A stretch of 31,241 nucleotides of DNA. It comes from a virus. A program made the position numbers and the translations under genes. The stretch lies in IMG/VR virus record IMGVR_UViG_3300047550_002977, positions 1 to 31,241 of that record; one strand, 5' to 3'. Below the pieces are notes generated by a model, which saw nothing but the letters and a program-made list of their open reading frames with translations, made no database searches and was not told the DNA's origin. This document shows, one piece after another, positions 1 to 31,241 of the stretch (its first letter is position 1; every line of letters starts with the position of its first letter).

Positions 1-563
1 CCAGTTTTTAAATACTCCAACATTTGTGGTAGTTTAGTATCACTAACTGATGGAAGAGTAGTTATTTGCGAATGAGTGATTGATGAACTTTCCCCATCAT
101 CATCATTTTCACTATTTATAAATAGAATGCTTGTCAGAGCATATCTACGGAGATATGTTAATCCTCCTCCTGCATTTTGTAGAGCATTAGTATTACTTCC
201 CGACATTGCTTGAAATGTCATTTTAGAAGCAATGAATTCACCGGATTCATGGGTTAGAATAGTGATTAATTCATTTCCTGCTAAATGCTGATGGATTAGA
301 ATGCCACAATTACATAGAATTGGTTTTACTTTTGAGATGATTTCATCAAGAGTAGTATATGCTCTTGTGCGATTAGCAGTCACCGGAACTACCTTATCTT
401 TCTTGATTGACAAATCTGATGAATGAAATTTAATTAATGCCTTATTGATTTGCCTTGTTGTTGTTGATGTCCAAAATGAATCGGTATAGTAAACTGATTC
501 AATCTTTGGATAATTGTCACTACTCTCTTGAGTAGATTCAAATAGCTTTTTAGTTGCGCTCAT
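1..563 (-). CDS. ERF-family single-strand annealing recombinase (3' end cut by window edge)
   Basis: This frame is open from an ATG at 563 to the window edge (187 codons visible) and I translated it by hand. It carries the ERF hallmark: a glycine triplet followed by LTYLRRYAL at about residues 132-143, then an acidic DDDG at 154-157. The N-terminal part has the INKAL and TTLDEIISKVKPIL segments expected of ERF proteins. ERF proteins (P22 Erf is the type example) anneal complementary single strands and act in phage recombination, genome circularisation or repair. The gene starts 14 bases after the helix-turn-helix gene, behind the shared AAACACAATG leader seen for several neighbours. The C-terminal region lies outside the window, so its length and any DNA-binding tail cannot be judged. 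Confidence 0.88.
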   Translation of the reverse strand, partial: MSATKKLFESTQESSDNYPKIESVYYTDSFWTSTTTRQINKALIKFHSSDLSIKKDKVVPVTANRTRAYTTLDEIISKVKPILCNCGILIHQHLAGNELITILTHESGEFIASKMTFQAMSGSNTNALQNAGGGLTYLRRYALTSILFINSENDDDGESSSITHSQITTLPSVSDTKLPQMLEYLKT

Positions 564-2223: not shown

Positions 2224-2496
2224 TTAGCTGATTCGGTAAATGACTCCTTTGTCAATGTTTTCGTTATCACGATTGTAATACATCAGCATCATTGCACCTA
2301 CTTTAAGGTCAAGAATTGCATCAATCATATCTTGACAAGCATACTTCCATTCGTATAAATTATCATCAGATTCATCATTATATATTGCATAATAAAATTC
2401 GTACAAATAAACTGGTTTATGTACTTGTACATTTAATCCATCAAAGTAAGAAATGCAGTAAGACCTTGTGCTGTTTGTGAATGCTTGGTTTTCCAT
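2224..2496 (-). CDS. Hypothetical protein, 90 aa
   Basis: Not recognised. The protein is rich in aromatic and acidic residues (YLYEFYYAIYNDESDDNLYEW), soluble and without motifs. The frame stays open upstream to another ATG at 2565, but the ATG at 2496 is immediately preceded by the 38-bp leader also found before the 63-residue gene. The upstream extension would be low-complexity T/N/Q sequence encoded by that leader, so I place the start at 2496. It ends just before the hairpin that precedes the methyltransferase gene. Confidence 0.58.
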   Translation of the reverse strand: MENQAFTNSTRSYCISYFDGLNVQVHKPVYLYEFYYAIYNDESDDNLYEWKYACQDMIDAILDLKVGAMMLMYYNRDNENIDKGVIYRIS

Positions 2497-2531
2497 TGTG
2501 TTTGTGTTTTGTGAGTTAGTATTAGTTAGTT
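2494..2531 (-). repeat. 38-bp leader repeat, copy 2
   Basis: Identical over 38 bases to 1243-1280, including the start codon complement. It sits directly upstream of the 90-residue gene. Two exact copies 1.25 kb apart in front of unrelated genes suggest a conserved cis-acting leader rather than a coding repeat. Confidence 0.85.
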
Positions 2532-2546
2532 GTGTTTGCTTTGATT

Positions 2547-2741
2547 TTAATATCCTCGTTTGCATAATTGAGTAATTCTTCTCTCAAATCCTTTCTTGGT
2601 ATAGAACTTAATCTTATCCGTATTAACATACGTAATCATGTGTACATTATCTCTTGATATTGCGTACCAACCAGCTAATTCATTCTCCGCAGAATAAATA
2701 CCATTTTCATCTCTTTGTGCATCAATCTTATTGCTTTTCAT
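2547..2741 (-). CDS. Hypothetical protein, 64 aa
   Basis: An unrecognised small protein (ENELAGWYAISRDN in the middle, basic C terminus). The frame is open to ATGs at 2822, 2798 and 2771 as well. I choose 2741 because it carries the AAACACTATG context shared with neighbouring starts, and because a candidate promoter box at 2805-2812 would lie inside the longest version. The 2771 start (MSQNTT...) is the next best. It is probably the first gene of the unit running down to the ERF gene. Confidence 0.5.
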   Translation of the reverse strand: MKSNKIDAQRDENGIYSAENELAGWYAISRDNVHMITYVNTDKIKFYTKKGFERRITQLCKRGY

Positions 2742-2804
2742 AGTGTTTGAGTTAGTTGTATTTTGTGACATCTTTATAAGGTTACCTTCCGGCTTTTGCA
2801 TACG

Positions 2805-2838
2805 CAAAGGTATATATTTCACATTACTAATTGACCAA
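2805..2838 (-). promoter_or_regulatory. Candidate Bacteroidota-type promoter
   Basis: On the minus strand the sequence TACCTTTG (plus 2805-2812) matches the Bacteroides -7 consensus TAnnTTTG. A TTG (plus 2836-2838) lies 23 bases upstream as a possible -33 element, slightly longer than usual spacing. It sits upstream of the small-gene/methyltransferase/HTH/ERF unit, and inside a cluster of AAGGTnACC motifs. Prediction only. Confidence 0.42.
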
Positions 2839-2868
2839 GTAGTAAGGTGACCAGTAAAAAAATATGTA

Positions 2869-2885
2869 ACTGATTGATAATCAGT
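2869..2885 (-). terminator. Weak hairpin downstream of the phosphoesterase gene
   Basis: ACTGATT and AATCAGT form a 7-bp stem with a 3-base loop. On the minus strand the stem is followed, after six bases or so, by a run of seven T (plus 2856-2862). It lies 15 bases past the phosphoesterase stop codon. This is a plausible but weak intrinsic terminator separating two transcription units. Confidence 0.4.
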
Positions 2886-2899
2886 ACGATAATTTTGCC

Positions 2900-3913
2900 T
2901 TAAATAAGGTCACCGGAGATGATTTTATGGTTTTTTACCCTAAAATCCCCTTTATCATTAATCACTTCTACAATGGCAAAACCATTCACCCATTGATTCA
3001 CTCCATAGGTATAGTCAGCATCTAACTTGCATAAGCATCCAATTGACCAACATCCATGCATTACTCCATCCATTGACCTTGTAATGTATTCTTGTGATTG
3101 GTGCCAATGACCTAACATCAGATTGACTCCTGCTTTGTTGTAATAAGTACGAGCAATATTAACTACTCCCATTGATGTACGAATCTCATGTCCATGTATG
3201 ATATGCAGTTTACCAATTTTCACTCCTATGTTATCCTTGAGATAGACAATGTTTAATGCTTTCCAATCAATGATATGCTCAAAATCAAACATCCCATCAA
3301 ACATATATGCATGGTCACGTAACCATCTTTGCAATCTAATTTCATGGTTACCTTCCTTAAAATAGATTGTTGATTCCGGAAATCTTTGCTTTAATTGGTC
3401 AACAAAGAACTTAAATATTTGAATCTCATCTTTGATAGTAGGTTTTCTATGGTCTTTGCTGAACTTGCTCAAGTGATAAAAATCAAGTATATCTCCGTTT
3501 AGTAATATACCATCAACATTCTCTTTCTTACCTTCTCTTAAAGCAAGCATTAGACTGGTCTTGTCATGGTAAGGTATATGTATATCACTTAACACAAGTA
3601 ATTTTTTATGACTAACATCTTTCCATTTTAATTTAGAATTCTCTCCATCTTCTAATGTCATTATATATGTGGAGGAATCTTGTTCATCTATTTTATAATT
3701 CAATTGATTAATTACTTTACGAGCATCATAAACCATTTTATGGTCGGAAGCATCAAAATCACTTTTTAGATTCCGCTGAAACCATAAATTCAAATCTTGT
3801 TGATTGCAATTTGGATTGCTTGCTATGTAATCAACTAAATCATTAAAAAATAAATTATAGATTTTTGGTCTTCTATCATAATATATACAAATCTCTTTAT
3901 ACTCCTCTTTCAT
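2900..3913 (-). CDS. Calcineurin-like metallophosphoesterase
   Basis: A 337-residue protein with a roughly 120-residue N-terminal region of unknown role, followed by a metallophosphoesterase core. All canonical metal-binding motifs are visible in order: DIH in VLSDIHIPYHD, GD-x-x-D in LNGDILDFYHL, GNHE in FKEGNHEIRL, HGHE in IIHGHEIR and GHWH in MLGHWHQS. These coordinate a di-metal centre in enzymes that hydrolyse phosphomonoesters or diesters, including cyclic nucleotides, nucleic-acid ends and proteins; the substrate cannot be told from sequence. The start ATG overlaps the stop of the upstream gene (TAATG), so it is translationally coupled. It lies downstream of the lysis genes in a methyltransferase-containing group. 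Possible roles are DNA/RNA end processing or defeating a host nucleotide-signal defence, both inferred. Confidence 0.88.
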   Translation of the reverse strand: MKEEYKEICIYYDRRPKIYNLFFNDLVDYIASNPNCNQQDLNLWFQRNLKSDFDASDHKMVYDARKVINQLNYKIDEQDSSTYIMTLEDGENSKLKWKDVSHKKLLVLSDIHIPYHDKTSLMLALREGKKENVDGILLNGDILDFYHLSKFSKDHRKPTIKDEIQIFKFFVDQLKQRFPESTIYFKEGNHEIRLQRWLRDHAYMFDGMFDFEHIIDWKALNIVYLKDNIGVKIGKLHIIHGHEIRTSMGVVNIARTYYNKAGVNLMLGHWHQSQEYITRSMDGVMHGCWSIGCLCKLDADYTYGVNQWVNGFAIVEVINDKGDFRVKNHKIISGDLI

Positions 3914-4194
3914 TAATTTGCTCTGCTTAATGATACGAATGAACTTATTTGATTTTTATACCATCTTTCCCATAATTGAAAAATGATAAATACATTTTCA
4001 ATTGCGATAATTATATCTCCATCTTCTAAAATTATTTCAGTAGTATCTCTTTCATCTCCCTCTTGAATATAATATATATTTTCAAGGGGAATCATTGCTA
4101 TTGCTGTTTGTCGCTTTGCTTTTGATAGCAATATATCTTCCGATTCATCATCAGTTTTGATAATTCTTACTTTCAAGAATTGAGAGATTTCCAT
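3913..4194 (-). CDS. Hypothetical protein, 93 aa
   Basis: Not recognised. The sequence alternates hydrophobic and charged residues (KVRIIKTDDES, TEIILEDGDIIIAIENVFIIF), suggesting a small beta-rich fold. It ends in a basic/aromatic helix-like tail (LWERWYKNQ). It overlaps the upstream SAM methyltransferase-like gene by 22 bases and the downstream phosphoesterase by one base of TAATG, so the three are likely made together. No function is proposed. Confidence 0.58.
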   Translation of the reverse strand: MEISQFLKVRIIKTDDESEDILLSKAKRQTAIAMIPLENIYYIQEGDERDTTEIILEDGDIIIAIENVFIIFQLWERWYKNQISSFVSLSRAN

Positions 4195-4742
4195 TGTGGA
4201 TGATTAGGTATAATAAAGATACATCCCCTACTTGCTCCAGTAGCTTGAGAATTATACTCTATTTTATATCCATTGGGAAAAGCATTATCTACACTATTAT
4301 TGATATATGACCATTCATAACTGATATTATGATATTTATCATAACCAAATGGTTTATTAGGTACTTTAAAATCATGTATGGCAATAATGGGATATTTATT
4401 AGAATCGCCTATGATTTTAATTTCCTCCAATAATGGATTCTCGTACCAATGTGCATCAAGAAATACTAATGTATTACCAGTAGAATTTTCTAATGCATAA
4501 GGCAGGAAAGTTCTTGTATCTTCATTTTTATGAACTACATTCTCATATCCATAAAGTTCTGCTTTAGCTATATTATGGACTGCTTCATTAATCTCACAAG
4601 TAAATACATTGTCAAAGTTCAATGACATCCATTTGGTAGTATCAGCATAATATGTTCCAGTTTCAATAACTGATTTTATATTATACTTATTTTTTAATTC
4701 TATGAACTTTAATTCAAGGAAAGTATCATTGTTGAATGCCAT
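4173..4742 (-). CDS. Class I SAM-dependent methyltransferase-like protein
   Basis: A 189-residue protein with a motif I-like SAM site VIETGTYYADTT at about residues 25-36, an acidic position after the next strand (VFTCEIN), and LVFLDAHWYENPLLEEI at about 92-108. This combination fits small-molecule or sugar methyltransferases of the Methyltransf_24/CmcI-FkbM type rather than DNA methyltransferases, since no (D/N/S)PPY motif is present. Given the glycosyltransferases and GDP-fucose genes elsewhere in the window, O-methylation of a phage- or host-made glycan is a reasonable inference, but the substrate is not shown. It overlaps the small membrane protein gene upstream by 17 bases and the 93-residue gene downstream. 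Confidence 0.68.
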   Translation of the reverse strand: MAFNNDTFLELKFIELKNKYNIKSVIETGTYYADTTKWMSLNFDNVFTCEINEAVHNIAKAELYGYENVVHKNEDTRTFLPYALENSTGNTLVFLDAHWYENPLLEEIKIIGDSNKYPIIAIHDFKVPNKPFGYDKYHNISYEWSYINNSVDNAFPNGYKIEYNSQATGASRGCIFIIPNHPQWKSLNS

Positions 4743-11721: not shown

Positions 11722-11739
11722 ATTTAATTATAATATAAT

Positions 11740-13503
11740 CTATAATGATGCATTATCATTATTATTATTATTATCATCATTATTATTATTAGAATCAGTA
11801 TTTAAATTTACTTGATTCCTTTTATTGTTAAGTTCATTTGCATATTGATTCATTATTTTCATTTGTTCATCATATGTCAATTCTGCAAATGAATCATATG
11901 CATCTAATGCTCTTTGAACAAATTTATTGATATTGGAATGAATTATTAAATCATTCTTATCAATCGCATTAAATGTATTTTGCAATGCAATTGATTCTTC
12001 CGGTACTCCTGCAAATGGGTCTAACTTCAATTTCAAAATAACCAAATCCTTAATGTTGCTATCACTAAATTTCTTTCCTGCAAGTTCAATTTGAGAAGCA
12101 TTAATAATAGCAGAATCTACCTTTGCTTGTGACATCATTGCAAGTTCATCAACTAATACTTTACCGGAGAGCATATCATATCTTTCCGGTACTGCAATGT
12201 ATGGAACTAAAGAGTAAATATCATTAGTGATTGCATAGTATCTCCATGCACATATATCATAGCTTACTTCATCCATAATCCTTACTACATCTTCTGCTAT
12301 ACTATGAACAAATGAGTATAGTTCTTCCCTATCTACTTGTTTAGCTACTCCGGATTGTGATAATGGAACATCAGCAAGAAATTCCATATTAATTGCTGAA
12401 AGAGCATCATATAAATGTTGCTTAATCCTATTATCTTGAATCTCTATGATTGATGTATCTTTTTGAACAAATCCCATTGGAGGAGTAGGGATTGCCGGTT
12501 CACCTGCTCTTGGAGGAGATAATACCAAATGTTCAAATGGATTCAATGGTAATAATCCTTTACCTCCACATGATGGACATTTAACTGGAGCAGAGTTTTC
12601 CTTTGGAATTTCACCATATCCTTTACATCTACCACATTGTTGTGGTTGAATAGAGTACATGGTAGGAAACATTGTTTGGACTATGCTTGATTGCATATCG
12701 GAATATTCTCTTAATGCTTCATCCATTTTAGGTACTATTCCACTAATCCTTGATTCGTATAATGCATAATCACTATACTGCTCTTTGATAAGACCATACA
12801 TATGCCTTACCGGTATATATCCAAGAGGATTTTCTATTTGAAATATCTCATAGATTCCACTATTCCTCCTTTCAAATAATTGGATTACATCATTTTGGAT
12901 ATACCAATATCTAATGCCATTATGATATTTCTCTCCTCCTTCTACATATGTACTTTTCTCCTCTTCTTTCAATAGATAGAATTGATTCTCTTTATAATCC
13001 AAAACATTCTCCGCACAAAAAATACGAGGATATGGTTTATAGTATTCATTCTCTTGAACTTCAAAGTTCATAGGAATAGTAAACACTACTGCATTAGCAT
13101 CAATCAAATATTGTTTGAATGCTACTGAAAACATCCAATTCGTAATACTGCTATTACGAGGGAATCTATACATCAAGTATTTTTCCGGAGTCTCCTCTTC
13201 ATTAATAATAGCAGGAATATCATTATTGAATGAAATCATCCAATCTTGAGATTTCCGAATCTTCATCAAAGAATTATAAATCTTTGTAAAGACTGGTTTA
13301 GTAATCGGAACAAATATTTTTTGCCTATAATTTTTGATATCATTGGATTCTGCTGGTCTTCTATCATCAATTAAATGATGTGGATATTCACCATCAGAAT
13401 GAATTTCCAATGATTCATACATTTTAACTGCTTCATTATATTCATCATGGCGATATCCTTGAAGAATATATGGTTCAAGATATGCAGGAGTGATTGATGG
13501 CAT
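11740..13503 (-). CDS. Portal protein with DnaJ-like double zinc knuckle
   Basis: A 587-residue protein with the length and helical layout of SPP1/HK97-type portal proteins (IFVPITKPVFTKIYNSLMKI near residue 63; REYSDMQSSIVQTMFPTMYS near 265; QSGVAKQVDREELYSFVHSIAEDVVRIMDEVSYD near 380-420). It is followed by the MuF-type gene. Unusually, residues 290-316 hold two CxxCxGxG units (Cys290, Cys293, Cys309, Cys312), the DnaJ-type zinc-binding pattern, inserted in the body of the protein. The C terminus is a run of Asn and Asp encoded by ATT/ATC triplet repeats (11751-11790), probably disordered. Its start overlaps the stop of the upstream glycosyltransferase gene (TAATG). Confidence 0.78.
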   Translation of the reverse strand: MPSITPAYLEPYILQGYRHDEYNEAVKMYESLEIHSDGEYPHHLIDDRRPAESNDIKNYRQKIFVPITKPVFTKIYNSLMKIRKSQDWMISFNNDIPAIINEEETPEKYLMYRFPRNSSITNWMFSVAFKQYLIDANAVVFTIPMNFEVQENEYYKPYPRIFCAENVLDYKENQFYLLKEEEKSTYVEGGEKYHNGIRYWYIQNDVIQLFERRNSGIYEIFQIENPLGYIPVRHMYGLIKEQYSDYALYESRISGIVPKMDEALREYSDMQSSIVQTMFPTMYSIQPQQCGRCKGYGEIPKENSAPVKCPSCGGKGLLPLNPFEHLVLSPPRAGEPAIPTPPMGFVQKDTSIIEIQDNRIKQHLYDALSAINMEFLADVPLSQSGVAKQVDREELYSFVHSIAEDVVRIMDEVSYDICAWRYYAITNDIYSLVPYIAVPERYDMLSGKVLVDELAMMSQAKVDSAIINASQIELAGKKFSDSNIKDLVILKLKLDPFAGVPEESIALQNTFNAIDKNDLIIHSNINKFVQRALDAYDSFAELTYDEQMKIMNQYANELNNKRNQVNLNTDSNNNNDDNNNNNDNASL

Positions 13504-24454: not shown

Positions 24455-24797
24455 TATCTCGTATTACTTTAATTGTGATTCCCTCTTGATTGAATTCAAT
24501 GTTAGTTTTTGCCTTACCATATGCTCTATCAAACAAAACTTCAAATGCTCTGATGTCACCTTCTAATGCTTTATTCCTTACTGCTTTTAATATTTGCTCT
24601 GCAATTGAAATTCCCTCTTTGTTTTCTTCGCCTAATACATCAGCAAGCAATCTTGTAATCTCCGGAATCTTCTTTGGTCTTCCTCCGGGATTTCCGCTTT
24701 GACCTTTCTTCCATTGATGTGGACGAATGTTTTCAGCATAATTAGGATTTCTTGGATTATCATTCCAATTTATTGGTTTATTTTGATTTTCTTCCAT
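24396..24797 (-). CDS. terS: Terminase small subunit-like (DUF5681-type)
   Basis: A 133-residue protein whose N-terminal KKGQSGNPGGRPKK segment (about 31-44) is the hallmark of DUF5681 proteins, commonly encoded next to the large terminase and regarded as small-subunit-like. A helical region follows (ITRLLADVLGEENKEGISIAEQILKAVRNKALEGDIRAFEVLFDRAYGKAK). It would recognise packaging DNA and stimulate TerL. It overlaps the fucose synthase gene by 20 bases and the TerL gene by 59 bases. The DUF call is firm; the small-subunit function is by position. Confidence 0.75.
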   Translation of the reverse strand: MEENQNKPINWNDNPRNPNYAENIRPHQWKKGQSGNPGGRPKKIPEITRLLADVLGEENKEGISIAEQILKAVRNKALEGDIRAFEVLFDRAYGKAKTNIEFNQEGITIKVIRDNGDSNQIAESSQRSEEGTN

Positions 24798-25680
24798 AGT
24801 ATAGAGAAATTGTTTGTTCTAATCCTCTCCTCAATGGTATTTGATACTTCCATCCAATTGAGTTTAATCTTGATACATCCATTACTTTTCTTGATACACC
24901 ATCAGGATAACCAGTATTATAAATGAATCCTCCTTTGTAATCAACTATTTCAGCAATCATCTTTGCAAGTTCAGTTATTGATGTCTCTTGTCCAGTACCT
25001 ACATTGATGATATCTCCATTATAATTATTCATCAAATATATGCAAGCATCAGCACAATCATCAATATGCATGAATTCTCTTTTTGGATTACCAGTACCAT
25101 ATATCTCAACAAACGAATCATCATTTGCTTTTGCTTCAATAATCTTTTTTATTAATCCTGCAACAACATGACTATTGTTAGCATCATAATTATCTCCTTG
25201 ACCATAAAGATTACAGCACATTGCAGTAATCCAATTGCATCCAAATTGTTTGCGATATGATTTAACTAATTCTACTCCTGCAATCTTTGCAATAGCATAT
25301 GCTGAATTTGTCTCTTCAAGAAATCCGGAAAGCAAATATCCTTCCTTAATTGGCAATTGACAATTCCTTGGATATATGCATGATGAGCCAATGAATAGTA
25401 ATTTACTTACTCCAACATTGTATGCACATTTCATTACATTCGTTTCTATTCTCAAATTGATATCCAAGAAATCTACTGGATTACGAATGTTTGCAATGAT
25501 TCCTCCTACCTTGGATGCACATAAGTAAACAATGTTTGGTTTTACCCTATTGAACATCATTTGTGTTTGAGATAAATCGGTAAGGTTACATTGTGCCGTA
25601 CTTACTCCAATCGCATTAGGTAACCTTCGCATTAATGCACTACCAAGCATTCCAGTATGACCAAGTATCAATGTTTTCAT
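24778..25680 (-). CDS. fcl: GDP-L-fucose synthase
   Basis: A 300-residue short-chain dehydrogenase-type enzyme. GHTGMLGS at 7-14 is the NADPH-binding GxxGxxG. GSSCIYP at 98-104 and YAIAK at 128-132 give Ser99, Cys101, Tyr128 and Lys132, with His171 at the end of DANNSH. These match the E. coli enzyme's Ser107, Cys109, Tyr136, Lys140 and His179 with a constant offset of eight, so all catalytic residues are kept. It converts GDP-4-keto-6-deoxymannose to GDP-L-fucose. The dehydratase for the previous step is encoded just upstream. It is coupled to a 75-residue gene (ATGA) upstream and overlaps terS downstream. Confidence 0.93.
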   Translation of the reverse strand: MKTLILGHTGMLGSALMRRLPNAIGVSTAQCNLTDLSQTQMMFNRVKPNIVYLCASKVGGIIANIRNPVDFLDINLRIETNVMKCAYNVGVSKLLFIGSSCIYPRNCQLPIKEGYLLSGFLEETNSAYAIAKIAGVELVKSYRKQFGCNWITAMCCNLYGQGDNYDANNSHVVAGLIKKIIEAKANDDSFVEIYGTGNPKREFMHIDDCADACIYLMNNYNGDIINVGTGQETSITELAKMIAEIVDYKGGFIYNTGYPDGVSRKVMDVSRLNSIGWKYQIPLRRGLEQTISLYYGRKSK

Positions 25681-25904
25681 ACAATCAATTCATCACAATT
25701 AATATTATATTTTTTAAATATATCATCTAACTTTTCAAATATTGAATCCAATGTATTAGACTCTCCAAGTTCATGCTGACATTGTTTCCTAAAATTCATT
25801 TGAATGTCCCATATAGCTAATGCCATATCAAGTGATTTAACACATCTATGATGTGATAACCTATCATCAACATCATCCAAATCAAATTCCAATAATGCCT
25901 TCAT
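25677..25904 (-). CDS. Conserved small phage protein, 75 aa
   Basis: Begins [20 protein letters not shown] and continues with [18 protein letters not shown]. This pattern (MKA-I/L-LEF acidic stretch, then an 'ALWD' helix and LR) occurs in a common family of short phage proteins of unknown function. It lies between the two GDP-fucose genes, overlapping gmd by 23 bases and fcl by 4. Whether it has anything to do with sugar synthesis is unknown; it may simply be a hitchhiking late gene. Confidence 0.65.
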
Positions 25905-26889
25905 TATTGTGCAATTCCGAATTAATCATATCGTGAATCAAATCATCCAAATTGATTTTTGGATTCCATTTCAATATGTCTCTTGCAAGAGTAGAATCCC
26001 CGTTTAGATATGTTACATCATTCTTTCTTAAATACTTTTTATCAATCATCACTACTCTCTTTCCATCAACATATCCTCCAGTAGCAGTCCATTCAATATC
26101 ATATCCTACATATAAAAATGCTTTCTCAATAAACTCTTTTACTGAACAAGTTACTCCAGTAGCTATCACTAAATCTTTTGGTACTTCTTGCTGTAACATC
26201 ATCCACATTGCTTGCACATAATCTTTTGCATGACCAAAATCACGAATGGAATTTATATTACCCAATCGTAATACTCCTTCTTTATTATTCAACCATTTAG
26301 CAATGAATCTTGTAATCTTTCTTGTTACAAATGTCTCTCCTCTTCTTGGAGATTCGTGATTGAATAGTATACCATTAACTGCAAATATATCATATGCTTC
26401 CCGATAATTACGAGTAATCCAATAAGCAAATAACTTACTCGTAGCATAAGGTGACATTGGATTAAATGGAGTATTCTCGTTTTGTATCTTATCAAGAGAA
26501 TTACCAAATAACTCTGATGTTGATGCTTGATAGAACTTTGTTTTTAATCCTAATATCCTAATTGCTTCAAGTAATCTCAATGTTCCAAGAGCATTTACAT
26601 TAGCTGTATATTCAGCATTTTCAAATGATACTTGGACATGAGACATTGCTCCAAGATTATATACTTCATCGGGATTAATTCTATTCATCAGATTCATTAT
26701 GGACATCCCATCAGTTAAATCTCCATAATGCAATTCAAAATTTGGATGGTCATATATATGGTCTATTCGTTCAGTATTAATAGATGAAGACCTTCTCTTA
26801 ATACCATGCACTATATATCCTTTGGACAATAATAATTCAGCAAGATAACTTCCATCTTGTCCGGTTATTCCAGTTATTAATGCTATCAC
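25882..26889 (-). CDS. gmd: GDP-mannose 4,6-dehydratase
   Basis: A 335-residue extended SDR enzyme. [17 protein letters not shown] at the N terminus is the NADP-binding signature of [25 protein letters not shown] and [10 protein letters not shown] (Thr124, Glu126), then SPYATSK (Tyr148, Lys152) and [18 protein letters not shown], are all family-specific. It converts GDP-D-mannose to GDP-4-keto-6-deoxy-D-mannose. With the downstream GDP-L-fucose synthase it completes a two-step route to GDP-L-fucose from the host's GDP-mannose. It is slightly shorter than bacterial GMDs (about 345-375) but no motif is missing. It overlaps both neighbours. Confidence 0.95.
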
Positions 26890-27429: not shown

Positions 27430-27981
27430 TTATAAATCTTTGTAGTATATGACCTTCTTGTTTAAATCACTCCTCACCGGATTCTTGTACAATGGTAGTG
27501 CATCTATTGCTTTCATTGAGTAATAGAATCCTCCACTATTGTTTGTTTTCAATTCTTTACTCACTCCATCAATAACACATAATGCAATGTAATCATTACT
27601 TGCAGGATTACTTACTAATGGGTCATTGGGTTGAAATAACCATGATACTGGATAATTGCTATTTAGATTATGTGATTTGACATGAATCAATTTCTTATCT
27701 CCATTGTCTAATGTCAAAATTAAATCAGAACTATAATCTTTTGTATGTGGAGGATAAACAATCATATCGGGATAACTGCAATTACCTCCATTCTTTTTGA
27801 TTGCATAATAAATCATCCATTCAGCTAACTTACCATTCACAATATCTTGTACTACTTTTTCTTTTACTGAATGATTCCTTGACAAATACAAATCAGCATT
27901 CTCGTTTATGTACTGATTAGCGAAATCAATACACATATCATATGTTGCAAGGTAAAATGAATCTAATTGTTTTGCTCTCAT
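27430..27981 (-). CDS. Possible PD-(D/E)XK-fold nuclease
   Basis: A 183-residue protein with GKLAEWMIYYAIKKNGG (Glu54 on a helix), then YPDMIVYPP, then SSDLILTLDNGDKKLIHVKSH with Asp86 and His100-Val-Lys102. The layout helix-Glu, Asp on a strand, then xVK on the next strand is that of PD-(D/E)XK nucleases such as type II restriction enzymes, with His in place of the usual Glu/Asp two before the Lys. This may alter or abolish activity. It could degrade host DNA, act in packaging or recombination, or be a degenerate restriction enzyme. It overlaps the glycosyltransferase gene upstream by 4 bases. Confidence 0.5.
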   Translation of the reverse strand: MRAKQLDSFYLATYDMCIDFANQYINENADLYLSRNHSVKEKVVQDIVNGKLAEWMIYYAIKKNGGNCSYPDMIVYPPHTKDYSSDLILTLDNGDKKLIHVKSHNLNSNYPVSWLFQPNDPLVSNPASNDYIALCVIDGVSKELKTNNSGGFYYSMKAIDALPLYKNPVRSDLNKKVIYYKDL

Positions 27982-28553
27982 ATCTTTTTATTGATTCCTC
28001 TCCATTGATAGAAATAAAGGAATTCATCAACAAATGCACAATCCCTAACTAATCCGCTTTCCGATAATCTAATTGCATAATCATAATCCTCTCCAAGCAT
28101 CAATGGTTTATAACCAATCTCTCTTGCAATGTCAATCATTACCGGATTAAGATGGTTTAATGGTCTTGTGTATATAAGTGATTTGCCATACCTATGTGCT
28201 TTCTCACTATACTTATATCCTGCATTATGAGCGAATTCAATTGGAATAGAATTAGGGGATGTGATGATTCCTCTAAATCCTATACCATGAGGAAATTTCT
28301 TCATGGGTAATAGAATCCTATCTACGAATGATGAACTAACTACATCATCATCATCAATAAAGCTTATGTATTCGCTCTCACATAAATCAAGAGCGATTTG
28401 TCGTTTTTCCCCTATTGATTTCTGCCTATCATCTTTTAAGATAAGCAAATCAATTGGTTTATTAATTATTTGTGGACTAATGATGTCTATGATTCTATCA
28501 TAGAACTTCTCTCTACCATTGATGGTTAGAATAGCAATTGTCCATAATTTCAT
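27978..28553 (-). CDS. Glycosyltransferase family 2-like
   Basis: A 191-residue GT-A type protein: WTIAILTINGREKFYDRII at the N terminus, IGEKRQIALDLCESEYISFIDDDDVVS with a DxD-type acidic cluster at 67-70, and LGEDYDYAIRLSESG (Glu155-Asp156), where the ED pair fits the catalytic base region of GT2 enzymes. It would transfer a sugar from a nucleotide-sugar donor, perhaps GDP-fucose or a host donor. It is compact and has no membrane segment of its own. The start overlaps the stop of a 24-residue membrane micro-gene, and the end overlaps the putative nuclease gene. The acceptor (virion protein, DNA or host glycan) is unknown. Confidence 0.75.
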   Translation of the reverse strand: MKLWTIAILTINGREKFYDRIIDIISPQIINKPIDLLILKDDRQKSIGEKRQIALDLCESEYISFIDDDDVVSSSFVDRILLPMKKFPHGIGFRGIITSPNSIPIEFAHNAGYKYSEKAHRYGKSLIYTRPLNHLNPVMIDIAREIGYKPLMLGEDYDYAIRLSESGLVRDCAFVDEFLYFYQWRGINKKI

Positions 28554-28624
28554 TTTGCTCTTCCTTGATTATATCCAAAAACATATACTCCCACTATAAG
28601 TATCATCAGTAATATCCATAACAT
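28550..28624 (-). CDS. 24-residue single-pass membrane micro-protein
   Basis: The 70-base space between two glycosyltransferase genes is exactly filled by a 24-codon frame. Its ATG overlaps the previous stop (TGATG), and its TGA overlaps the next ATG (ATGA). The peptide starts MLWILLMILIVGVYVFGY and ends NQGRAK, which is one perfect membrane span with a short polar, positively charged tail. Coupling at both ends and the coherent membrane sequence argue for a real gene. It may anchor or recruit the neighbouring glycosyltransferases to the membrane, or be an independent membrane toxin or modulator. Confidence 0.65.
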   Translation of the reverse strand: MLWILLMILIVGVYVFGYNQGRAK

Positions 28625-29277
28625 CATACGATTGGGAATCCTTGTTTCTTCCGGTAATCATAAATCCTTTGACCATATATGTAAGCAAGTTTTGAATTCT
28701 CCTTCCTATATGTTTCATCAATCTTGCTCTTTCCAGTAGTATAATGCTTATGTTCAAATTGGATGTGGAGCGCATTATTATAGATTTCCAACTTCTTGCA
28801 TACTTGAGTTAAATCATTATCAGCATACATTGAGAGATACTTTGGATGATAGATATATCCAATCAATTCATAGGCACTCCTATTCATAATAGGAATGGTT
28901 AGTATATCACATCTAATCGTATCATGTACTTGCAGTACGGCAGGAGATTTACCTAATCTCTTGTATTCATTGATGATTTTAGAATCCCATTTATCGCAAG
29001 GAAACATATCATCACTTACAAGAATCAATATTTCTTCTGATGATTCCATTGCACCAATGTTAGTAGCTTGCACCATATTGGTGGAATCACTTTTGATTAT
29101 CGTTACTGCTTCACCTTCAAATAATTGCTCATAATCATTAATTGAATCATCATTGTTGTTGAGTGAAATTATCCATTCAACATGACAATTAGAATTGTCC
29201 ATTGCAAGCATCCAACTACGATAAGTAGTGAATGCTTGCTTTGGTCTTTTATATGATGGGTGAATTATGCTAAACAA
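28624..29277 (-). CDS. Glycosyltransferase (GT-A type)
   Basis: A 217-residue protein with FSIIHPSYKRPKQAFTTYRSW at the N terminus, typical of GT2-like folds. NMVQATNIGAMESSEEILILVSDDMFPCDKW (Ser88-Asp89-Asp90) is a DxD-equivalent, and MYADNDLTQVCKKL is the later acidic motif. No membrane segment. It begins the glycosylation cluster, 3 bases downstream of the DUF736-like gene. With the next GT and the fucose genes it probably builds or transfers a short glycan. Specificity cannot be predicted. Confidence 0.72.
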   Translation of the reverse strand: MFSIIHPSYKRPKQAFTTYRSWMLAMDNSNCHVEWIISLNNNDDSINDYEQLFEGEAVTIIKSDSTNMVQATNIGAMESSEEILILVSDDMFPCDKWDSKIINEYKRLGKSPAVLQVHDTIRCDILTIPIMNRSAYELIGYIYHPKYLSMYADNDLTQVCKKLEIYNNALHIQFEHKHYTTGKSKIDETYRKENSKLAYIYGQRIYDYRKKQGFPIV

Positions 29278-29279
29278 GT

Positions 29280-29486
29280 TCAGAATGGATTAGAATCCTT
29301 CTCTTTCTTATCACGGAAAGCAAGATTGAAATACTCTATTCCGGATTTAGCTTTTTTAATCCATAGAGATACATCTCTCAATTTTCCATCAATGAGTGCT
29401 GTTCCGGTAAAATCCGGTTGATTCTCCGTTTGCTTCTTGTTGTTCTGAAATAAACTTCCAGTTGATTCTTTATGCTCGTAAGCCAT
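29280..29486 (-). CDS. Small conserved phage protein (DUF736-like)
   Basis: A 68-residue protein starting MAYEHKESTGSLFQNNKK, followed by PDFTGTALIDGKLRDVSLWIKKAKSGIEYFNLAFR. This MAYE-x-K-x-x-(S/T)GSLF-x-N ... P-D-(Y/F)-TG ... (I/V)DG ... W-(I/V)K-x-x-K-x-G pattern is familiar from short phage and plasmid proteins related to DUF736, of unknown function but often near replication genes. It is the first gene downstream of the origin-like region. A small beta-barrel resembling an OB fold is possible. Confidence 0.68.
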   Translation of the reverse strand: MAYEHKESTGSLFQNNKKQTENQPDFTGTALIDGKLRDVSLWIKKAKSGIEYFNLAFRDKKEKDSNPF

Positions 29487-29546
29487 ATCTTTTAGTGATT
29501 TTATTACTGCTAAATTATAGTAAGGAGTAGAATGAATGAATGGGAT

Positions 29547-29555
29547 TTATCCACA
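29547..29555 (+). promoter_or_regulatory. Consensus DnaA box
   Basis: TTATCCACA matches the strong bacterial DnaA-binding consensus TTATnCACA at every position. It lies 20 bases from the decamer iterons. It suggests that host DnaA may take part in starting phage replication. Confidence 0.6.
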
Positions 29556-29574
29556 AGATTATATGATGTGCTTT

Positions 29575-29604
29575 GCATAAGATAGCATAAGATAGCATAA
29601 GATA
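29575..29604 (+). repeat. Three tandem GCATAAGATA iterons
   Basis: Three exact, directly repeated decamers, one per helical turn, so a bound protein would sit on the same DNA face. Further copies in both orientations occur to 29840. This arrangement is typical for an initiator-binding array. Confidence 0.85.
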
Positions 29605-29844
29605 AATCGAATCATCTTATGCTACCTAACTCATTGAATAGTATACCAATATATGCTCTTGCATAAGATAATAAGATAATATTATATATATATAGATATT
29701 TATATATAGTATAGAGAGCCTTATATATACACATATATATTTATATATAGTTTTGAAAACACTATCTTATGCTATGCAGTCTTTGTGACTAATTGATTTA
29801 CAATGCATTCAAAATGCTTGCATAAGATGCTATCTTATGCAGTA

Positions 29845-31241
29845 TCAAAATGGAGCATCATCATCAAGTTTTCGGGAAATAGTCGCATGAAGATTAAATG
29901 AAGAATTCTTCTCCATTATGATGTAACCAAATCCTCTTTCCTTATAGATTCTACGATAACCAAGATTCCTCAATTCCATTCCAAGTTTTTTGATTGAGAG
30001 TTTTTGCTTGGTCATTGTTTCAATTATATCCTTGATATGCGTAGTAGTTTTGAAATCATAATCAGTACCTATCTCCGGTAACTCAAATAGTCTAATGATA
30101 GATTCACGTTCAATGGAGATTTCGCCATATTTAGAAGCAGTAAACTGCTCAAGCATATCTATATCATCGCTTGATAGGTTAGCATCAGTACCAGCAAGGT
30201 ATAGATGCTTTATTTGAGCGAATAGCTGTTCTTTACAAACGGAGTTATAAAGCAGGAAATTAAACTTACCTATTGCTTCAATAACAATGATTCGCCTATT
30301 ACCGGTAGCATCATTAAGAATCTCCGTTTCATTGCAAGTTCCGCACAAGGTAGCTACTCTCCTCAAAGTGATATTCTTCTTGCCATATGGTTCACGGAGA
30401 GTGAACGAATCTGAAGAGAGCATCTTTTTCATATGCTTTGCATCTTGCTTTGATTTACCGGAGTATTCATCATCAAAGATGATTAGCTTTTGGGTCATTA
30501 GTATTTCATCATCTTTTTGCTTATCCAATTGAGAATTAGCAAAAAACCTTATCAATTCATTTGGCAATAACCTTTTGAAGAATTGAGTCTTACCGGTATT
30601 CTTTGCTCCTGCCAAAACAAGGCAAAGTATATTTGGTTCATTGGAATAGATGGATTGAACTATACCTATCAACCATTTGGTTACAATTGATAATCTCCAT
30701 TGATGATTACCGGTATCAGAATTTATGGAATAGACAAGGTCATTTAATCTATCTATGTTATCCCATTGGAGTGAATCAAAATAATCTTTTATAGGATTAT
30801 ATACTGGAGTAGAATTAGAGAAGATGATAGTATCAAACAATTCTCTTGATAGCTTTTCAAATCGCTTTTTAGCTTGTATATAGATAGTATTAAGGTCTTC
30901 TGATTCTAACTCTTTACCATGTAGTTCATATATACGAGTAATCTGATTCTTCTTAATTGGATAATTTGATTTAATCCAAAGTTCCACATCATCAATGTTC
31001 AGTTTTTTATCTTCATGTGGAGCATAATTATCATTAGAATAAACTGCTTCAATAACTTCTAAATCATTGGATGTAATGTTATCTATCATGGAAGATAGTT
31101 CATCAGATTTCTTACCATTTGATTTAGCGAAGAAAGCTACCTTACTGATATAGTTTTCACGTTCATCAGAGATATTGATTCCATAAACTTTGCAGTAGTA
31201 GTAGAATGTATTGATGGTAACCTTATTGGTATTATACTTTA
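29845..31241 (-). CDS. VirE/VapE-family replication helicase (5' end beyond the window)
   Basis: The frame is open from the stop at 29845 to the window edge. The ATG at 31089 is internal, since about 50 more codons precede it without a stop. Counting from that Met: VYNPIKDYFDSLQWDNIDRL (96-115) is the family signature, Walker A GAKNTGKT at 161-168, Walker B LIIFDDE at 202-208, sensor-like TCNE at about 251-254, and TGNRRIIVIE thereafter. These are SF3-like ATPases of phages and mobile elements, usually fused to an N-terminal primase-like or BT4734-type domain in Bacteroidota, which would lie outside the window. It probably unwinds DNA at the adjacent iteron region. Confidence 0.85.
   Translation of the reverse strand, partial: KYNTNKVTINTFYYYCKVYGINISDERENYISKVAFFAKSNGKKSDELSSMIDNITSNDLEVIEAVYSNDNYAPHEDKKLNIDDVELWIKSNYPIKKNQITRIYELHGKELESEDLNTIYIQAKKRFEKLSRELFDTIIFSNSTPVYNPIKDYFDSLQWDNIDRLNDLVYSINSDTGNHQWRLSIVTKWLIGIVQSIYSNEPNILCLVLAGAKNTGKTQFFKRLLPNELIRFFANSQLDKQKDDEILMTQKLIIFDDEYSGKSKQDAKHMKKMLSSDSFTLREPYGKKNITLRRVATLCGTCNETEILNDATGNRRIIVIEAIGKFNFLLYNSVCKEQLFAQIKHLYLAGTDANLSSDDIDMLEQFTASKYGEISIERESIIRLFELPEIGTDYDFKTTTHIKDIIETMTKQKLSIKKLGMELRNLGYRRIYKERGFGYIIMEKNSSFNLHATISRKLDDDAPF

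Follow-up and report, generated by a model that had tools for sequence, protein, structure and literature searches.

A VapE-linked iteron array as the putative replication origin of a Bacteroidota tailed phage

RESULTS

Gene order and content of the noncoding gap

The window analyzed here, a linear IMG/VR virus record of 31,241 bp, carries all of its assigned genes on the minus strand and contains a 358-bp noncoding gap at positions 29487 to 29844, between the stop codon of a VapE-type helicase gene (29845 to 31239, minus strand) and the start of the next gene. This is by far the largest gap between the selected coding sequences, the second largest being 133 bp, which bears out its earlier description as the only long noncoding stretch. 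The helicase gene is cut by the right contig end, beyond which its 5' end is lost, leaving the C-terminal 464 aa of the protein, and an ERF-family recombinase gene (1 to 563, minus strand) is truncated by the left end; the two ends may therefore adjoin in a circular or permuted genome. Since the contig is a linear fragment, an origin could also lie elsewhere. On the far side of the gap, a gene at 29280 to 29486 (minus strand) encodes a 68-aa protein with a weak resemblance to single-strand DNA binding proteins of phages (phrog_18154, 2.3e-7). In most of the close relatives examined, this gene adjoins the replication gene or origin, whatever the helicase type. The 68-aa protein also resembles DUF736 via L112, below the cut-off. 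Genes for a GDP-mannose dehydratase, a fucose-synthase-like epimerase, and glycosyltransferase-like proteins (24778 to 26889 and 27978 to 29277, minus strand) sit between the putative origin and the terminase and are partly conserved in relatives. The window also holds TerL, a TerS candidate, weak portal and tape-measure matches, and putative tail genes; the portal candidate (11740 to 13503, minus strand) contains a CxxC zinc-finger-like insert at residues 285 to 319 that matches Anti-TRAP below the cut-off.

The window contains eight exact copies of the 9-mer GCATAAGAT, every one of them inside the gap, and across 3,000 dinucleotide-preserving shuffles of the gap the copy number of any 9-mer stayed at three or below. 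The decamer GCATAAGATA is present in six exact and two one-mismatch copies, in agreement with the original prediction of at least seven such decamers in both orientations. In the orientation of VapE, three iterons come first, namely an inverted pair at 29832 to 29840 (minus strand) and 29820 to 29828 (plus strand) and a last VapE-side copy at 29764 to 29772 (minus strand), and the first of them begins 4 bp beyond the VapE stop at 29845. They are followed by an 82-bp A/T-rich core at 29676 to 29757, the proposed melting site, and then by five distal iterons at 29661 to 29669 (plus strand), 29614 to 29622 (minus strand, inverted), and 29595 to 29604, 29585 to 29594, and 29575 to 29584 (plus strand), the last three forming the exact 10-bp tandem triplet that had been predicted. 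The core is 86.6% A/T compared with 68.9% window-wide, so that the proposed core of about 80 bases is indeed A/T rich but was overstated as almost pure; a second 80-mer of equal A/T richness lies at 11731. An exact match to the consensus DnaA box, TTATCCACA, is located at 29547 to 29555 (plus strand).

Rfam and tRNA scans gave no match, and GC skew was dropped as origin evidence because it is uninformative with every assigned gene on the same strand. The inverted iteron pair just past the VapE stop (29818 to 29841) may fold into a hairpin (z -4.0) that lacks a T run, and its inverted orientation is not preserved in the related loci L010 or L141. In the archaeal plasmid pRN1, a stem-loop origin lies immediately 3' of the gene for the winged-helix primase-helicase ORF904 (PMC4234260), and self-pairing of the A/T core is possible, which would suit an origin built on a large stem-loop rather than on iterons. 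Nevertheless, the core folds like its shuffles (z -0.05), and the only structure that folds well is the short two-iteron hairpin, whose repeats are direct in several relatives. Such a stem-loop origin was rejected as extremely improbable.

The VapE-type helicase

The protein encoded next to the gap is a VapE-domain protein (Pfam PF05272, E = 3e-34), confirming the adjacency to a VirE/VapE-type helicase gene noted earlier, and its AAA+ helicase domain spans residues 155 to 365 (30145 to 30777, minus strand). Its sole significant sequence homologue in the PDB is 7pds, titled "The structure of PriRep1 with dsDNA" (1.5e-14; profile, 8e-22). The AlphaFold2 model (mean pLDDT 86, pTM 0.74) likewise has 7pds as its top Foldseek match (2.6e-18, TM ~0.6), with further fold matches to the C-terminal region of phage NrS-1 and, lower down, to 7ola, "Structure of Primase-Helicase in SaPI5." Thus, the protein is related to 7pds in both sequence and fold. 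In the predicted model, residues 395 to 443 (29911 to 30057, minus strand) follow a strand-helix-helix-strand-strand order, from which we read a putative winged helix, the proposed reader of the iterons. The nearest full-length relatives additionally carry BT4734-like_N and PriCT_2 domains; among relatives whose gene is complete, L010 is the closest.

Repeat arrays 3' of VapE in related loci

Scanning viral contigs with a VapE alignment yielded 80 loci, selected by VapE similarity without regard to repeats, and the DNA 3' of VapE was taken in each. Clustering at 90% protein identity gave 53 nonredundant loci whose 3' flank reached 400 bp or more, and 2,001 windows drawn from the same loci served as the background. 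Some 8-mer was found at least four, five, or six times within 400 bp 3' of VapE in 38, 31, and 25 of the 53 loci, respectively, compared with 9, 4, and 3 of the background windows; for five or more copies, the enrichment (31/53 vs 4/2,001) was highly significant (Fisher p ~5e-50). Fifteen of the 53 clusters had fewer than four copies of any 8-mer in these first 400 bp. Arrays were displaced by inserted genes in L022, L037, and L009, with offsets of +1311 to +1517 in L022 and L037, and likewise in Flavobacterium phage mumin, at +669 to +896. No array was seen 3' of VapE in phi46:1, P12024L, phi38:2, and ARB14.

The repeat sequence varied by lineage (GGGTAAGATA in L010 and L011, CGACAGAT in L141, GGGTAACTT in L029, TTAATAGG in L038, TGTAGTCA in L076, and CTGACAGATG in L006), while the layout, with iterons on either side of an A/T-rich core, was preserved; the most A/T-rich 60 bp was flanked on both sides by iterons in 61 of 63 array loci. 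Offsets nearly coincided among the window, L010, L011, and L141, with a proximal set at ~0 to 30, one copy at ~70, the core, and then more copies that close with a triplet at ~240 to 280. The exact tandem GCATAAGATAGCATAAGATA was absent from the viral contigs searched, and a DNA-level search of phage records gave no match. Relatives lacking the decamers at this locus had originally been taken as grounds for discarding an origin; they do lack the exact decamer, but they carry a repeat family of their own in the same layout. Arrays 3' of VapE were also present in Streptococcus satellite Javan339, Clostridioides phage phiCDKH02, Flavobacterium phage FPSV-F8 with 8 repeats, Cellulophaga phage phi17:1 with 5 repeats, and a Saprospiraceae metagenome-assembled genome (MAG), which suggests that the arrangement extends beyond the phages of Bacteroidota. 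The predicted Bacteroidota host of the window itself is supported because both genomic VapE homologues found belong to MAGs, one from Bacteroidia and one from Saprospiraceae. Other arrays occur far 5' of VapE in L018 (~600 to 800, GCAAGAAC, 10 copies) and L076 (~1865 to 2050, GCATTGGC, 8 copies), where the spacing, always a multiple of three, points to coding repeats.

This distribution bears on two other roles for the repeats. Because the gap lies directly 5' of the next same-strand gene, a promoter may lie within it, and the repeats could be an operator or promoter array through which a phage transcription factor would control the downstream operon (SSB-like protein, glycosyltransferases, packaging); weak HTH-like matches in the window, for example at 577 to 831, would fit such a factor. 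However, arrays accompany VapE despite differing downstream genes (L003 to L006, the satellite, and the Clostridioides phage), and the A/T core separates the iteron sets. Moreover, a Bacteroidota-type promoter pattern had no match in the gap, sigma-70-like sites fell below the shuffles, and promoter and terminator scans of the gap returned nothing exceeding shuffles, leaving regulation an unlikely function for the array. Centromere-like sites also combine repeat clusters with an adjacent A/T-rich stretch, and a terminase small subunit candidate is located ~4.7 kb away, as might be expected of a partition or packaging (pac) site. Yet the part of the window proteins that was scanned contained no ParA/ParB family match, and across phages the arrays adjoin VapE rather than the terminase, so a partition or pac site appears very improbable.

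The DnaA box

The original prediction joined the iterons and the DnaA box in a single origin, and this pairing would suit an iteron-plasmid-style origin that host DnaA and a phage initiator open jointly, with VapE serving only as the helicase. The exact box has a chance of 0.0024 per gap shuffle, with ~0.5 expected over the whole window. Against such opening, an exact box was found in only 1 of the 53 loci, the window itself (0.23 expected), looser boxes were found in 6 of the 53 loci vs 3.07 expected, and the box is missing from the nearest relatives, L010 and L011, which have the same layout. The box is thus not conserved along with the iterons, as it would be in an origin of the iteron and DnaA-box type. 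We consider it probably incidental or lineage specific, and opening by DnaA correspondingly improbable. The iteron part of the original prediction is upheld by position, layout, and linkage to VapE in dozens of phages, and the part that made the DnaA box an origin element is unsupported.

Exchange of the proposed initiator and possible co-variation with the iterons

In phages closely related by terminase (TerL 74 to 80% identical), the helicase slot before the 68-aa gene varies in type. Among these relatives, VapE in the slot came with an array, a BT4734-like/DUF5906-type helicase with different and weaker repeats (3 to 6 exact copies), and a DnaB_C-type protein (L129) with no intergenic array. 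The L129 helicase in place of VapE, at 2360 to 4195 of that locus, has a BT4734-like N-terminus.

Suggestive evidence that the C-terminal domain (CTD) may change together with the iterons came from pairs of VapE proteins. The strongest example is the pair L019 and L021, with AAA+ cores 99% identical and CTDs 58% identical; here each of the nine iteron copies is changed, from ATCTTACC to ATCCTACC, and their positions nearly coincide. Among pairs with similar cores, mean iteron similarity was 0.91 to 0.97 where CTD identity reached 0.7 and 0.48 to 0.60 where it did not, but core identity drops together with CTD identity, so these means do not isolate an effect of the CTD. Iteron similarity in close-core pairs, which are not independent of one another, correlated with the CTD (rho 0.80) barely more strongly than with the core (0.74), and over all pairs CTD similarity added no prediction of the iterons beyond the core (partial Mantel p 0.22).

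DISCUSSION

The gap resembles the replication origins of staphylococcal pathogenicity islands (SaPIs) and phage-inducible chromosomal islands (PICIs). SaPI Rep helicases read iterons with their CTD, and the origin follows rep immediately on its 3' side (PMC7581432); in PICIs, the origin 3' of rep always comprises two iteron sets around an A/T-rich region (PMC6092414). The window shares with them an AAA+ helicase of the VapE/PriRep type, here the proposed initiator, with a C-terminal DNA-binding domain, here predicted, a putative origin directly 3' of its gene, and two sets of short iterons, three proximal and five distal to VapE, around an A/T-rich region. In contrast to these elements, the window belongs to a phage of Bacteroidota that carries a terminase, a portal candidate, and tail genes of its own; the N-terminus of the nearest full-length relatives is of the BT4734-like plus PriCT_2 kind, and the iteron sequence is unrelated. 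A PICI is a satellite without complete capsid or packaging genes, and the window, with its terminase and structural genes, is therefore not itself a PICI.

Other systems share single features with the window. In the staphylococcal cassette SCCmec, the Cch2 helicase uses its C-terminal domain to bind direct repeats at a putative origin just past its operon (PMC7581432), similar to what we propose for VapE, but Cch2 is of the Primase_Cterm/D5_N type and has only three 5-nt iterons. The alpha protein of satellite phage P4 binds origin repeats through a winged-helix domain on a primase-helicase (PMC4234260), similar to the domain predicted here, although its primase is of a bacterial type; the likeness is drawn from the published description of P4. 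The pRN1 origin has the same position immediately 3' of a winged-helix primase-helicase gene but uses a stem-loop instead of iterons in an archaeal plasmid. Iteron plasmids with DnaA boxes resemble the window in its iterons, A/T-rich stretch, and one consensus DnaA box, but no RepA-type initiator was found among the window proteins scanned, and the box is not conserved here. The plasmid-type likening of the original prediction is less fitting than a SaPI/PICI origin, in which a VapE-like initiator-helicase recognizes iterons 3' of its own gene (PMC6092414, PMC7581432).

Taken together, positions 29487 to 29844 are probably where this phage has its replication origin, with VapE acting on it as SaPI/PICI initiators do, a reading based on sequence comparison. 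We infer that replication would start in the gap, with VapE, encoded directly upstream in transcription order, binding the GCATAAGAT iterons that flank the A/T core. Binding would occur through the C-terminal winged helix, an assignment for which the predicted fold and the co-variation are suggestive only. Bound VapE would then form AAA+ rings, melt the A/T-rich core, and load itself as the replicative helicase, so that host DnaA would not be needed.

This type of origin is already known from satellites, and its spread in Bacteroidota phages appears to be under-described; a search of the open-licence literature found no paper on such VapE-linked origins in phages, which is weak evidence of novelty. 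The layout is present in many of the phage contigs examined here. On balance, we lean toward the view that SaPI/PICI-type origins are no speciality of satellites but are common in VapE-encoding tailed phages of Bacteroidota and in at least one Clostridioides phage, where lineages may re-specify initiator and iterons together, presumably through a concerted change of all iteron copies with the winged-helix domain, and where the whole would act as a plug-in module exchanged with DUF5906- or DnaB-type modules at one slot. Phage-specific repeats around an A/T-rich core 3' of VapE would offer a simple rule for placing origins in uncultured phages, and the natural initiator-iteron pairs could serve to test how the winged helix recognizes DNA. 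The shared arrangement may also point to a linked ancestry of satellite and phage replicons.
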